A stretch of 64,000 nt of DNA from Pagrus major. Its lineage: Eukaryota; Chordata; Actinopteri; Spariformes; Sparidae. Location: contig NC_133234.1 of NCBI RefSeq assembly GCF_040436345.1, positions 11,098,446-11,162,445 of the forward strand. The letters are read 5' to 3'. Below the pieces are notes generated by a model. That model saw nothing but the letters and a program-made list of their open reading frames with translations. It was not told where the DNA came from and made no database searches. Of this stretch, positions 56,411 to 64,000 are shown one piece after another (position 1 is the stretch's first letter; every line of letters begins with the position of its first letter). The position numbers and the translations under genes are program-made.

Positions 56411-58180
56411 TTATGCTGGTCTGCACATTTGCGATTAGGCTCACAGCTCTGTGTGTGAGATTGTGTGCGTGTCGGGGTCTCACACTGTCAAGGTCAGACA
56501 TGAGAAAGTGTCACATGGGAGCAGCCCGGCCTTGGCTAAGTGCCCTTTCAGTGTAAATGGATCCACACGAACACCACGTCTCTTACTTGATGGATTTGAT
56601 CCACTCCTCCTTCTCCTCCGGCGTGGGGGCAGATATCCTGTACACTACGTGGTTGCCCTCGACGACTCGCCCGTCAGCCTCCGTCTTGCAGGCCTTGATC
56701 ACCTGACCTTTGTGGTTGGGGTTGTAGAGCTCGAAGCAGTTCTGAAGGAGACATCAGGAGGAAAATGTAAGATGTTCTGTGTATGAATACAAAAGAGATT
56801 AAAGTAGATTTAGAGGAGACAGTGGCTGGAGTTGCTCCTTACAGGTTTCCTGGGCTCGTCCACCTCTCTGATACTGAGGTTCTCCAGAGGAATAATTCCA
56901 CGAGGCTCCTTATCCTGAAACGCACACATACAAAGACAACACTTAGCATCAACACATCCCTTGTTCAGGTTGTACATGTCTCTTTATCCCAACCTAAGAT
57001 AAGGGCAAAACAGACTTAAGCAGCAACCGTGTTTAAGTAGTTATTTATAAAACCTTACTTTGACATGGAAATGTTCTTATCTCCAAGCAAAGTCTAGACT
57101 TGACAAAAGTGATTCCTACAGGTTATGTTGGGGTATTGCAGTTTGGGACACATGCATCCAAGGACTTGAGAGTTTTATGACAAATATGCAGCGCTACTTA
57201 GTTCACTGAAAAATATGCGTCATCTGGCTTCAGTCTCCTCTACCATCTCTGTGATCTCTTCTTCCAACAAGTTTGACTTTCTCTTTTGGTCCATATCTAC
57301 TCCTGACTAAACATCCATTTGTGCTGGCATTACATGATGGGAAATCACAAGGCAGGTGCCGTCAATGTAAGTTGATTTGAGATTTATGGATCACAGGCGC
57401 GTAAGTTACAAATGGGATTCCTACAACCTGCTGAAGCAAGGTTTTTATGCTGAGCATCATCGGAAATGATCTAGACTAAGTTCAAGTATTAACATTTTAA
57501 TAAATGAGAGGTTGCAGACTGCAACCAACTGAACACCCCTTGTATCTATCCTCTCCAGAGCCAGCTTCTGTTTTGTCCATTCTGGGAACAACATGGCTGA
57601 CTCCATGGAAGAGGATCCATTCCCCCATTCCCTCTCTAGATATAAAATGCTCATTCTACGGTAACAAAAACACAAGGATTCCTAGTTTCAGATGATTGTA
57701 CACTAATGAAAATATAATTATGAATATTATATTACATTTCTGTCAATAAATCCCACTAACTCCTCCACACTGAATTCTCATTTGCTATGAAATGTGTTAA
57801 AAATGTTGCATATTTAACACATTTAACCTACACTGTTCTGTCCATACTGTGGCGAAAAAGGATGCAAGTATCTGATTATTCAATTTCAAATAACAATTTC
57901 ATACAAGTTAAAAATAGAAAACAAAGAACTAATGTCACAAAGTTGATGCAGTAACATTTTTATGCCACATGCAGCACCTTTAACTCCCCTGCAGCGATGC
58001 TTTGCATTTTAACTACTATTTGAACATATTGAACCTGACAGAATAAGAGTAAAAATTAAGGGGGTGATAAAACTACACTGGGGGTTTTTATACATTCTGG
58101 TCACGTAGGGGACAGTACCTGAGGGAGACATAACCCTATACCCTCCAGCGACTGCTATTCTGTCTGCGGGGCCAGATGTG

Positions 58181-58218
<38 letters not shown>

Positions 58219-61200
58219 TGTGTGTGTGTGTGTTTAGGGGAGACCTTGAGGAACAGCCCCGTGTCCTGCTTGTCATCTTCCTACTAATGAGGGGGCACAG
58301 CGGGGGGAGGAAATGCCCTAGGACAGCTGCTCACAGCTGGCTGTGTGTGCGCCTTTTTAAGTATGTGTGTGCACCCGCTGTAGTGTGCAGAGAGATTGTT
58401 GCGTGTGTGTTTGTGTGGGGGGGGGGGGGCTTCTCAGAAACGGGGATGCTGGGGTGAAGTGTGGGGTGACAGGCAGCGGGTTGGAGGAGGCACATGGTTT
58501 GCGGCTTAGCGGTGCCAGATGTGGGCGGTAGACTTTGCAGATGTTTCCCATGATGCCTCATGTTAATTGCTGGAGTGAGGTTCATTTAGGTCAAAAGGGC
58601 TGCATCTGTTAAAGAGGCAGAGCTGGAAGGCAAAGACCTCTGTCTTAACTCTGCGTGTGTGTGTGTGTGTGTGTGTGTGTATGAGACATAGATCAAATGT
58701 ATTTTTTAATGTTTCTACTTCACATACAATCCTGTCACACAACATTTATCTACACATCAGCCATTTCGCATGGACTAGACTACCACTGTTTCCCCTTGTT
58801 TCCAGTCTTTGTGCTAAGCTAACTGTCTCCTAGCTACAGCTTCATATTTAGTGTACAGATTTGAGAGTGGTGTCGATCTTTTCATCTAACTCTCAGGAAA
58901 AGAACAACACATGGATCTGTCGTGTGTATGATACAGTCCGTTCTGACACATGTGAGCACACACTAATCTGCAGACTTACTGTTGTGTATTCAAAGTAATA
59001 GAGGCAGTTGTCGGTCAGAATGAACCACCGTCTCTTCCACGTCTTCACCCTGCCGCCTGCGGAGAGAAAACCCACAACCTTTGAGTTCAAACTGAAGAGG
59101 TGGTGGTGTTTGTGCAAGTAGAGGCTAACCTGCAGAAGACCTCAGCTCCACGTGCCACATCTGGTTCTGATCATCAGCTCTCTGCATTATTAGGCTCAAT
59201 CAGAGGCGGGATACTCCCTCCAGCACCCCTCTCAGTCTCAAGAGATCGATGCCTGAGGGCTCGATAACTGTTCCCAGACATGCACACATCTAAAACATGT
59301 GACGACTAAAGCAGGAGCAAGTACAATTAAACATCTGAATGTAGGAATAATATATGAATATCTCCTTATGAGGGACACAATCTCTCCATCTGCCTCCGTC
59401 GTCAGATAAAAGTAGATTACAGTAGATGTATTGGGATTACAGGATTTTCTGTTAATTACACCATCAGTGATGCAATTTAACTATTTACTCAAAAGGAGAT
59501 AATGTGTCTGATGTCAATGTACAGTCTGCAATATGTGCACCATAAGAACATGTCTGCTGAGTTTACAGGATGAGCACAAAGCAGCCGTTACTGATGTAAT
59601 CAATACGTAATGTTCACTTGACCCAGATTTTCATTCTATAGTGCAAGCTAGAGTAAAATCCAAGGTCTACATAATAGATGAGCAATGTTTACTACAGATG
59701 CAACCGCTGCATTTTACTCAGAAAATGGATTGAACATGTACATGTATAGTAGCAGTATGTGTATAGCTTGTTTGTTCAGTTATGGAAAAGATAAATATTT
59801 CATTTTTTGTATTATTACCTCATTAATATTGTAAATATTAAAGTTGTGAGTTTGTTTTTCTTTCTTCTCCAAAACTACACGGCGGCCCGTTAAAAGGTTA
59901 ATTTTTTGGGTGAATTCGAGTCCTCACATGCAGAATAGCCACAATGCTGCACACCGACAGGTCATTTATCTAATCTAAATATTAATTAGATGCTATGTTT
60001 GTCTGTTTACACACTGATCACTGAACATAATTTGAATGTGACCATTTTACTACATAAATGCATGATCAGCAGTGGTGCTGTGTTTGTGCTGGCCCTCTGA
60101 AATGTACTATAAAAACATCTGAATAAGTGAATTTGATGACATGCTGTTTACTCTGGATGATGATGATGGATTCAGCCACAGCAGCAGGCTCAGGCCTGGT
60201 TAATAGTGTGGTGTAATGAGAGCTTATGGGGCTTCACAGTCTCACAGCAGTGCAGCAATATGTCATATTGAACTACCTGACGGGCCAGCAGACTGCTTCA
60301 TCCAAGCTAAACCAATCTTCTCTCATTAAGCAGCATCTCCTCTGATGGAGCTAAAATTAGCGTGGAATTCACTAATGGGAAAAATTGGACCTAAAATGAT
60401 GTGGCAAGTGCAGCTGGTGGGATAGAGAGCAGAAGAGGAAGAGAGAGGGAACTGTAGAGGAAGAGGAGAAGCAGCAGTGTGGGGTACTGAGGCCTGTTGG
60501 ACAGGAACAGGAGGGAGAAGAATGAAAACAGGCTTTATTTCACTGCATGACCAAGTTAGCAGTGGTAGGTAGGTACGCATTCTCACAGCGCAGACTCAAG
60601 CAGCCCATTCACTAAAGCTCGAGCATGACTGCATGTTCTGGCAGATAGCTACACAGGAGCTGTATGATGTGCATGGCAGTCTCTAATCGCCATTTATATC
60701 AGAGCAATGTGTATTAGCGTTTCATGAAGAATTTGGTTGACTTGCTAATGTTTTAAAGGTGCAATATGTAAGAATTGGCCAACTGTCGAATTCATAGGCA
60801 TACTCCAAACAAATAGGAGGTAGCTTATCATTAGAGTAAGCGCTAACTGCTTTCTAACTTTAGCTGCCGTTAGCTGGTAAGCTCAATTAACCGTGCAGTT
60901 GGTGGTCGTATTAGCTGACTGTGCCTGGACTGGGAGCTGGTCATATTTAACGTACAGACACGTGAGCGGTATCTATCATCTCATTTAATTCTCAGCTAAA
61001 AAAAGCTAATAAGTGTATTTCCCGAAATTTTACACTGTTCCTTTAAACAAGTGCAGTTTAAATCTGTTGTCTTAACCGATATGAACGTTAACTGAAAGGT
61101 GAAGGAACCTGTAATCTTCGATATCCACTGCGTTGTAAAAGTGCATGCGCCATAACTACAGTATATACAGTAATGTTCACTTTAATTTTTGCTTTCAAAC

Positions 61201-63296
61201 AGCTTAGATTGATGTGGACTTGTTTAAAACTCGCCTGATCACTAATGACTGTATCTACCACAACATGGGCTTTCCATTTTTATTGCTAAAAGCAGCTTAT
61301 GGCTCTAACATACCTTACTTTTATGTCTTTATCCTGTAATGATGATAAGCTTTTCCGAAAAGAGGCCAAACAATAAAGGGGATTTAGCAATTTGCACTGT
61401 GGTTTGATGAGGTAAGCAGTGTACTTATGCTAAGGCTTCTCGGGATAAAAATTAACGCTCTGCGTGTGCATCGACTGAGACAAGCCCTGTGCACCATCCA
61501 GCTTCCTCCAGAGCCACAAGAGAAATGCAGCCAATCCCCATGCAGAATGACAGAGATCACTGACCTCCAACTCGCCTCGCCTTTGAATGAGATAACCCAT
61601 CACCTCAAGATGCTGATTTGATTTGCCTAATAACAGCTGTTACAATGAGCCAATTAAATGAGGCAGCTAGCATGTCAGGGGCCCAGTGTGCTTAGGAGGT
61701 AATGGCAGCCAATGCCAGTATGAGGGCACTCTGTGATGAACCGGGAGGATGGAGGAAGGAGTGTTACCTACCTCCTAATACAGAGATTTAAGGAGGAACA
61801 GCCATCACAGTACAGAATGAAAGAACAGAACAAAAGGTGAAAGGGTGAAAGGTTAGAGAGAGGGAGCGAGGGAACAAAAAACACTGAAAGACTTTTGAAA
61901 GACACAACAAGCACAAAGATCACCATGCCAGAGAGACAGAGAGAGTGTAATCACAACAAGAACATGCTATAAGAGAGGAGAGGAAGGAGAGACAAGAAGA
62001 GGAGAGTTCATGGGATGAAGGACAAGGACAGAAACTTTGCAGTTGCGTCACAGATCTCCGAGCAACCTTAATTAGCTCCATCGTGAAGGTGGACAGTTTT
62101 TGGGCGAGGGTAGGGCTGCATGGGTAGAAATGAGCTGACTAAAATGTGTTTGCTATTTAATGTAGAGTAGCGCAAAGTAGCTTTTTCAATAGTTTTTGTG
62201 TAATCACCACCAAACTAATGGACACAGGCAAAAACACTATGAGCTATGTGTTAACATGGACATGCTAACATGTTATGCAGCTGGCTAACAGCTCAGGCTG
62301 AGTCACCAGCAAGGAGAGGTAATAAAAACAAAAATCTGCAAGATCTGCCTTGGGTCAGACCCAAAAGTAGCACAGCTAAATTAATTTACATATTATCACA
62401 AATCAAGTGGTGCTGCAGGGTTTGTTGCTACTTCCACTCTTGTTCACTAGTAAATCCTGTCTCATGACTGACTGAAAACTATGTCACATTTTTTTATGAG
62501 GCAATTTATACTCAGGCAGAGCAGAGTGATATCAAATGGATGGTGTGACACCACTGACAGCTTTAATGAGCTCACAAATTCATAAATATATTCCTGTCAT
62601 AGTACACACCTTGCATCATTTCCTCTTAGTGAAAATGTAGGACTTAATTCTAAGTTAAGTAATGCAATCAGCTATTTTCAGCCATTAATGCCCAAGAGCT
62701 GTCGACCTCCAACATGGCTGCTGACAGCCCATCATAAACAAGTTACACACAAACAAACAACACAAAAACTCATCACTAGAGAAATGACAGACACTGCTCC
62801 TCAATCTGATGTTGAGGGTCTTCTGACAAAAATCAACATAATCAAAGTTTCTTCTTTTTGTGACTCCTGAATGCACATACCGAGCTTCAGGAGCCAGCCT
62901 TCTCTGTCAGGGTTGAAGAACGTGTGCGTCAGATCGTTGCCATCATCCTCTGGGATTTTAAAGGGCTCGTTTTTGATGCTGTCGTAGAGGTTCTGCAGGC
63001 AGGGGGAGGAAAACTATTAATCAAAAAGGTAAACAGTGGAGGAAATGCCTCTTTCGTATGGAGTAGGTGTGACAGAACGGTCCCAGAGATCATCCATCAC
63101 ACACACACAAACACACACACACACACTCATTACAGAGAAATACTCACCCTGAGCAGTTCCTCTGGCAGATCTCCTCCTTCGTTGATGCCTCTGTTCATGG
63201 AGATAAAGCGCTCCACAGGGGGCTTGTCTCTGACGTTTGGGTTATGTAGGCTGGTGTTCAGCATGATGATAGCAAATGACAGCACGTAGCAGGTAT
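53270..63296 (-). CDS. cyth3: Cytohesin-3 (ARNO3/GRP1) Arf guanine nucleotide exchange factor, 3' half
   Basis: Cytohesins activate Arf GTPases at phosphoinositide-rich membranes through a Sec7 domain followed by a PH domain. Exons in order: 63296-63148, 62992-62881, 59056-58980, 56914-56843, 56741-56587, 53342-53270; last 211 residues. The first gives the end of Sec7 ([36 protein letters not shown]); then [20 protein letters not shown] and the PH domain ([62 protein letters not shown]). The end [23 protein letters not shown] points to CYTH3, not CYTH1 or CYTH2. The exons listed give the diglycine form (KLGGRV); a possible 3-base exon at 61772-61774 would give triglycine. The N-terminal coiled coil and most of Sec7 lie past the right edge. 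Confidence 0.95.
54570..54690. repeat. Fragment of the AGTAAAAGTACT fish repeat
   Basis: CACTGGTGGAAGATGTATTC followed by AGTAAAAGTACTAAAACCAC matches the repeat at about 20470-21046. Lies in the last cyth3 intron, immediately left of MITE copy D. Confidence 0.5.
54741..55047. mobile_element. TTAA-flanked MITE, copy D (most intact)
   Basis: Begins TTAAAGGTGCAATATGTAAG and ends CTTACATATTGCACCTTTAA: the outer 20 bases are perfect inverted repeats including TTAA. The 307 bp interior has palindrome-rich GCTAGC/GTTAGC segments and no coding capacity. Sits in a cyth3 intron. Best reference copy of the family here. Confidence 0.85.
55493..55519. repeat. (TG)n-(CG)n microsatellite
   Basis: TG run ending in CGCGCGC, in a cyth3 intron. 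Confidence 0.8.
56235..56261. repeat. (GT)n microsatellite
   Basis: GT dinucleotide run in the cyth3 intron about 330 bp from the exon at 56587. Confidence 0.85.
56379..56409. repeat. (GT)n microsatellite
   Basis: Pure GT run in the cyth3 intron downstream of the exon ending at 56587. Confidence 0.9.
58184..58233. repeat. (GT)n microsatellite
   Basis: About 50 bp of GT with a GCGC interruption, in the cyth3 intron between 56914 and 58980. A poly-G run follows near 58419-58429. Confidence 0.9.
58654..58680. repeat. (GT)n microsatellite
   Basis: GT run in the cyth3 intron about 300 bp downstream (in transcription) of the exon at 59056-58980. Confidence 0.85.
60753..61046. mobile_element. TTAA-flanked MITE, copy E
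   Basis: Begins TTAAAGGTGCAATATGTAAG and shares GAATTGGCCAACTGTCGAATTC and GCTGCCGTTAGCTGG with copy A. The right end is diverged (ACTGTTCCTTTAA) but still abuts TTAA. Lies in the cyth3 intron between 59056 and 62881. Confidence 0.7.
61772..61774 (-). CDS. cyth3: Candidate 3-base microexon (GAG) of cyth3
   Basis: On the minus strand the sequence reads CTCTGTATTAG|GAG|GTAGGT, a complete acceptor, three bases and a donor. It sits in the intron that splits the first PH-domain Gly codon after one base (G|GC). Inserting GAG gives GGA GGC GGC, turning KLGGRV into KLGGGRV. Mammalian cytohesins are known to use a three-base exon at this spot. The only AG-GAG-GT I found in the 3.8 kb intron. Confidence 0.6.
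63096..63124. repeat. (CA)n microsatellite
   Basis: CA run in the short cyth3 intron between the exons at 62881-62992 and 63148-63296. Confidence 0.85.
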
Positions 63297-64000
63297 CTGA
63301 GAGAGCAGTGAGAAAATCCAATAGGTTACACAAGTTTATGTCCAGTTAGATATACCTGGTATTATACTGTAGGTCATAGTGATAATATTTTGATGTAGAC
63401 AAATATTTTTACATTGGACAGGAGAGGCAAACTGTTTGTGGCATGTGTGCTGTAACATTTTTTGTTTTTCAGTACATATAACAGGATGTCATCAGCATAT
63501 GTTGATAATTTGCATTCATTATGACCTTTTGTGTTATAACTTCTTCTAACAAATCTTGCCGTTTGAAATATTCCTATCAGAGGTCGCAGCAGGAAGTGGG
63601 CTGTAATTCTTCTAGATTTTTTAAAAATGATATTAAGGCATTTTCTCAATAGATGATAAATACAGACAGAGAAAAGACTGTGGTTCATCTTTCTCTCTCT
63701 CTCTCTTAGTAGTGCATCACTTTTAGACTCAGCAAGACAAGTTTTTCAATAATAGTTTGGTTTTTGTGCTGCATTTGATAGATGTGTGTGGTATGAGTGA
63801 GAGGAAAAGTAAGTGGGGGAGGCAGGGCTTTAGTCTCTCTACTGTGTTAATGCTCAGACACACACGGGCCACTGGCTGCCTGTAAATGAATCATTCATTC
63901 CCCTCTGTCTGATCCTCTCACTGACACACTTTGGTCCTGGCTGTCCTGCGCTGCCTATTGTCTGCCTGCTAACACACATTCTCTATAAAAAATAGAGGAG
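63297..64000 (-). other. cyth3 intron at the right edge
   Basis: No exon encoding the preceding Sec7 segment was found on the minus strand up to the window end, so this is intron. It includes a short CT run near 63692-63708. Confidence 0.6.

Follow-up and report, generated by a model that had tools for sequence, protein, structure and literature searches.

A candidate three-base GAG microexon in a cyth3 gene of the fish Pagrus major and its counterparts in three cytohesin paralogs

Introduction

Mammalian Cyth1, Cyth2 and Cyth3 each occur as two isoforms, with two glycines or with three in the beta1/beta2 loop, owing to a 3-bp difference (GAG); the diglycine form (2G) is reported to be selective for PI(3,4,5)P3, while the triglycine form (3G) binds PI(3,4,5)P3 and PI(4,5)P2 alike (PMC9104363). 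This single-glycine microexon has been named as such and credited with opposite effects on integrin recycling (PMC10586773), and papers citing the earlier work trace the GAG microexon of CYTH1, CYTH2 and CYTH3 to Ogasawara 2000, Klarlund 2000 and Cronin 2004.

Two broader classes of exons are also relevant here. Long AG exclusion zones are described as marks of SRRM3/4-dependent microexons, where they accompany UCUC tracts, CUAAY and weak 3' splice sites (PMC8797185), and they are reported to characterise exons whose branch points are distant and which undergo alternative splicing more often (Gooding 2006, PMC1431707). In zebrafish, 16.1% of 402 mouse-conserved microexons are absent from Ensembl transcripts (PMC7821500). 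The main texts of this last paper and of PMC12626424 do not name cyth, and no cytohesin microexon of fish is recognisable by title or abstract among the matches listed, even if supplementary tables may well list one.

The window considered in this work is a 64,000-nucleotide stretch of the Pagrus major genome (contig NC_133234.1, positions 11,098,446 to 11,162,445), with a cytohesin gene on its minus strand. An initial annotation of its letters had proposed a GAG microexon that would switch this gene between 2G and 3G; the lipid preferences that it gave for mammals are as published (PMC9104363), and its remark that such exons are usually missing from annotation is in line with the zebrafish figures (PMC7821500).

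The host gene and the candidate microexon

The window gene could be modelled as nine exons in frame (the start and the end of the gene lie outside the model), with exon borders set by rule, i.e., AG/GT common to the seven paralogs described below. Compared with solved structures, its protein matches Cytohesin-3 best, and the gene is referred to as cyth3. The parts discussed here are the following:

63148 to 63296, minus strand: cyth3 Sec7 exon, 149 nt
62881 to 62992, minus strand: cyth3 exon, 112 nt, 3' end ...LLKL G/
59057 to 62880, minus strand: host intron, 3,824 bp
58980 to 59056, minus strand: cyth3 exon, 77 nt, 5' end /GC GGC AGG
56843 to 56914, minus strand: cyth3 PH exon, 72 nt
56587 to 56741, minus strand: cyth3 PH exon, 155 nt

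The host intron (62880-59057) begins with GTATGTG and ends with CCGCAG; the exon upstream of it ends with CTGAAGCTCG/ and the one downstream opens with /GCGGCAGGGT, so that a glycine codon, G/GC, is interrupted in the beta1-beta2 loop of the PH domain. Within this intron, the minus strand from 61790 to 61755 reads TAAATCTCTGTATTAG/GAG/GTAGGTAACACTCCTTC, with these features:

61775 to 61776, minus strand: acceptor AG (TATTAG), weak, score 1.86
61772 to 61774, minus strand: candidate 3-nt microexon GAG, +1 Gly (2G to 3G), from the sequence and from GAG in three paralogous introns
61766 to 61771, minus strand: donor GTAGGT, of ordinary strength, score 5.32

When GAG is skipped, the codons G/GC GGC give LLKLGGRVKTW (2G), and when it is included, G/GA G/GC GGC gives LLKLGGGRVKTW (3G), with exactly one glycine added and the frame kept. 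Both products have solved equivalents: the 35-residue 2G segment recurs unchanged in GRP1/Cytohesin-3 chains, e.g., 1fgy, and the 36-residue 3G segment in the PH domains of Cytohesin-2 chain 1u27 and Cytohesin-3 chain 1u2b. Thus, both the position assigned to the AG-GAG-GT string by the initial annotation, in the intron that splits the PH codon, and the gain of a single glycine hold.

How much the motif says by itself is another matter. The sense strand of the intron carries one copy of AGGAGGT and likewise one of AGGNGGT, while the window as a whole has AGGAGGT three times on the minus strand and seven times on the plus strand. In 2,000 draws from a first-order Markov model of the intron, 0.114 copies are expected and P(any) is 0.1055, so the motif alone is weak and not significant. 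The earlier estimate of one such string per roughly 16 kb was about right, as was the caution that the hit was suggestive and no proof; the intron does not hold the better-placed competing GAG that had been named as grounds for abandoning the reading, the AGGNGGT being single. A random AGGAGGT within a long intron is an alternative account of the motif, with a likelihood of about 10% that the host intron holds at least one, and the evidence that bears on this alternative comes from the paralogs and from the anatomy of the acceptor.

Seven cytohesin genes and three further GAG sites

The genome (786 Mb, 25 contigs) was searched with the PH exon, which gave 28 matches, seven at 96-100% identity and 21 at no more than 63%, and with the upstream exon, which gave seven, at those same seven genes. 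In three of the six other genes the same intron holds a GAG with strong splice sites:

C23:16.4 Mb: cctcag/GAG/gtatgtac, GAG from base 1171 of a 3,448-bp intron
C20:20.4 Mb: ctccag/GAG/gtatgtac, GAG from base 202 of a 594-bp intron
C17: tctcag/GAG/gtatgtac, GAG from base 488 of a 635-bp intron

The sites read CTCAG/GAG/GTATGTAC at C23:16.4 Mb and C17 and CTCCAG/GAG/GTATGTAC at C20:20.4 Mb. In the corresponding introns at C23:15.1 Mb (3,190 bp), C1 (396 bp) and C23:25.2 Mb (88 bp) there is no GAG candidate. Because three paralogs share GAG in that intron, the exon is probably older than the split of cyth1, cyth2 and cyth3.

In a tree of the seven, the window gene joins the gene at C23:15.1 Mb, to which it is 98.4% identical (support 92/92, below 95, the star level of treekit); C20:20.4 Mb joins C23:16.4 Mb (93/95), C1 joins C23:25.2 Mb (100/99), and the position of C17 is open. 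The paralog names, cyth1-like, cyth2-like and cyth4-like, are working labels. Comparison with solved structures, which covered C17, C23:16.4 Mb and C1, suggests that C23:16.4 Mb is cyth1-like (Sec7 bit scores of 421 for Cytohesin-1 vs 396 for Cytohesin-2) and points weakly to C17 being cyth2-like (397 for Cytohesin-2 vs 386 for Cytohesin-1), both names being tentative. The equally tentative label cyth4-like for C1 and C23:25.2 Mb is inferred from their distance, and there is no Cytohesin-4 structure among the structure matches of C1.

Two details of this gene set deserve mention in their own right. On each of chromosomes C20 and C23 there is one cyth3-like gene together with one member of the C20:20.4/C23:16.4 pair (at 11.2 and 20.5 Mb on C20; at 15.1 and 16.4 Mb on C23), an arrangement that duplicated sister chromosomes would be expected to show. 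The cyth4-like gene at C23:25.2 Mb (L041, G000:C23:25208800-25209300), whose intron here is the one of only 88 bp, reads LLKMGG in place of LLKLGG.

Beyond the exon, little is shared between the sites. Local alignment of the 200-nt flanks of the window site with those of the paralogs gave P values of 0.27-0.65 upstream and 0.056-0.96 downstream, none of them significant. One 12-mer is common to the window and the C17 paralog, at -149 and -159 from GAG, respectively:

61912 to 61923, minus strand: 12-mer GTGATCTTTGTG

Its simulated P is 0.02 for any shared 12-mer in 258-nt flanks and 0.00175 for one whose two offsets differ by at most 10 nt, figures that count as minor evidence only, the 12-mer having been spotted by eye ahead of testing.

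The flank of the GAG site does not look like a repeat. A 321-base flank matched itself alone in the 786-Mb genome (by a search that passes over simple repeats and words that are very common), and for this reason a repeat origin was rejected; positions 61500-62100 likewise matched only themselves in the sequence searched. No relatives were present in the prokaryote and virus contig collections, as expected, and Rfam gave no match at gathering scores over 58900-64000.

Strength of the splice sites

The weight matrices used to score splice sites were built on the seven cytohesin genes, which supplied 63 acceptors and 63 donors. The lowest score among these donors is -5.37, and one of the 63 is probably false, because the last exon at C23:25.2 Mb seems to be wrongly ended (its translation hits a stop). 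On this scale the window acceptor, at 1.86, lies near the bottom of the set (5th percentile 5.05, minimum 1.05), and the donor, at 5.32, stands just above the 25th percentile of 5.06; its sequence, GTAGGT, differs from the GTATGTAC found in all three paralog microexons.

Across 56 cytohesin introns (41,727 bases, leaving out 25 bases at the start of each intron and some 10 at its end), 12 AGGNGGT sites were ranked: the three paralog microexons took ranks 1-3, and the window site came fifth, with a GCG site from a different intron of the window gene above it. Among 117 unrelated AGGNGGT sites, drawn from both strands of 596,502 bases, 11 equal or beat the summed score of 7.18 of the window site, and splice-site scores alone were rejected as proof on this account.

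Two neighbouring signals were also recorded. A donor GTAACA (61762-61767, minus strand) lies 4 bases beyond the microexon donor, has nearly the same score (5.95 vs 6.4 for the latter), and would create a 7-nt frame-shifting exon if used. Some 190 nt before the microexon, at 61967-61968 (minus strand), there is an acceptor-like ctctcttatag with a score of 12.7 and an AG-free zone of 66 nt; no exon is evident after it, and it may be a decoy or the start of a cryptic exon.

The AG exclusion zone

The idea of examining AG-free zones comes from what is generally known about distant branch points. Upstream of the window acceptor there are two features of this kind:

61777 to 61883, minus strand: AG exclusion zone, 107 nt, pyrimidine-rich, the longest in the intron
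61852 to 61856, minus strand: CTAAC, roughly 78 nt from the acceptor; candidate distant branch point (a motif match, with a putative function)

The zone ranks first among the 243 AGs of the host intron. Those of the paralog microexons measure 196 and 104 nt, each the longest of its own intron, and 69 nt, second behind one of 71, while for 39 real acceptors of introns longer than 150 nt the median is 43 and the longest zone 187. The control set for these lengths comprises both strands of the window and of the pieces L008-L028 and L043-L059, where the three paralog sites are absent, and excludes sites less than 260 bases from the start of a piece; of its 38,032 AGs, 0.155% reach at least 107 nt and 1.19% at least 69 nt, and none of its 117 other AGGNGGT sites has a zone as long as 69 nt. 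When intronic AGs of the seven genes are counted from 150 bases into each intron, with the microexon AGs included, six of 2,121 reach 107, only two of which are the window and C17 sites. A long zone is therefore not proof, and further AGs that belong to no known exon come close, with zones of 100 and 93 in the C23:15.1 Mb intron and of 93 in the C23:16.4 Mb intron. As to UCUC content, the window site has 7 CTCT/TCTC in 118 nt, vs an intron mean of 2.03 and a 95th percentile of 11.5, and there is no UGC within the last 40 nt before the acceptor.

The 107-nt zone and the paralog copies lift the GAG site above chance. An accidental match could still appeal to the unrelated AGGNGGT sites that splice as well on paper (11/117), but it would have to place the string by luck behind the first-ranked zone of the intron (1/243), when no control site reaches even 69 nt (0/117), and to have an identical exon recur in the same intron of three paralogs. 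The product of 0.1055 and 0.00155 is about 2e-4, a value that treats the two as independent and that uses a test picked after the window site was read, with the three paralogs as later cases. We therefore regard a random origin as very improbable.

Recursive splicing is still harder to credit. In this alternative, TTAGGAG/GTAGGT would be an acceptor and a donor with no exon between them, used to remove the intron in two steps, and an AG followed directly by GT (GAG/GTAGGT), a 3.8-kb intron and a long pyrimidine tract would suit it. It would, however, require a GAG acceptor, GAG being the least used of the NAG acceptors, three bases past a TAG, and the same layout is found in paralog introns of 594 and 635 bp, where two steps are unneeded.

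The sister copy of cyth3

The duplicate (ohnolog) at C23:15.1 Mb offers no comparable site. Its intron of 3,190 bp (L037, G000:C23:15125700-15129250) lacks AGGAGGT; the acceptor of its sole AGGNGGT (GTG) is very poor; its four near-matches to AGGAGGT at 6/7 positions all score -5.0 or lower as acceptors, none being plausible; and a 16-mer core is matched at 10/16 positions at best. The closest paralog of the window gene thus seems to have lost the GAG exon, which would leave one fish cyth3 fixed as diglycine. A fuller scenario, to which we give about an even chance, is that after the teleost duplication the window cyth3 kept a weakened, tunable GAG (2G/3G), while its 98.4% identical sister lost the exon and became fixed as a PI(3,4,5)P3-selective diglycine form. 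This ohnolog-specific loss is possibly the new element of the present findings.

The same comparison raises the question of whether the window copy is itself on the way out, i.e., a once-strong CAG/GAG/GTATGT that has become too weak for inclusion and is heading toward the traceless state of the ohnolog, whose intron has neither AGGAGGT nor a plausible near-match. The weak TATTAG acceptor and the changed donor would fit such decay, but an unused 107-nt zone and CTAAC should erode, and the donor is still ordinary (5.32). We hold this to be unlikely, if less so than the two alternatives above.

The preferred reading and its implications

Read together, these comparisons make it quite probable, in our judgement, that the GAG site is a genuine microexon of 3 nt in this fish cyth3, included conditionally and already present in the ancestor shared by Cyth1, Cyth2 and Cyth3. 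A real exon that is probably weakly used is the best reading, and we hold it with good confidence. The initial interpretation as a cytohesin GAG microexon is thereby strengthened by the same-intron GAG of three paralogs and by the acceptor anatomy, and tempered by the weak acceptor and by the nearest paralog without the site.

In mechanistic terms, a distant branch point at CTAAC (about -78) and the long AG-free pyrimidine tract would pick the TATTAG acceptor, GTAGGT would serve as the donor, and the 3-base exon would be spliced between the 112-nt and 77-nt exons. Inclusion would change the beta1-beta2 loop from LGGR (2G) to LGGGR (3G), which in mammals lowers the selectivity for PI(3,4,5)P3 and may do so in fish. 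Because the acceptor is weak, the microexon is predicted to be mostly skipped, so that the gene would be 2G-dominant, with 3G in some tissues.

If this reading is true, the 2G/3G lipid switch of the cytohesins dates to the bony-vertebrate ancestor, is easily overlooked by ordinary fish gene predictions, and is gone from one of two cyth3 duplicates. The cyth3 pair would then be a natural experiment on the role of a single glycine, with switchable and fixed copies of a near-identical protein allowing a direct in vivo test of its effect.

Comparison with known systems

Since a GAG switch in Cyth1-3 has already been published for mammals, the fish site is not new in kind and is a member of a known switch. 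It resembles the mammalian CYTH1/CYTH2/CYTH3 switch in the gene family, the GAG, the one-glycine outcome and the loop, with exact counterparts of its 2G and 3G segments in solved PH domains; it differs in its weak TATTAG acceptor and in having a sister copy without the exon. With the SRRM3/4-dependent microexons, as described in PMC8797185, it shares a weak 3' splice site, the 107-nt zone, CTAAC and a pyrimidine-rich tract, but it lacks UGC in the 40 nt before the acceptor, and because this element is missing it is not assigned to that class. With the alternative exons with distant branch points (Gooding 2006, PMC1431707) it has in common a large AG exclusion zone and a presumably alternative exon, whereas its branch point is a predicted one and its exon has just 3 nt.
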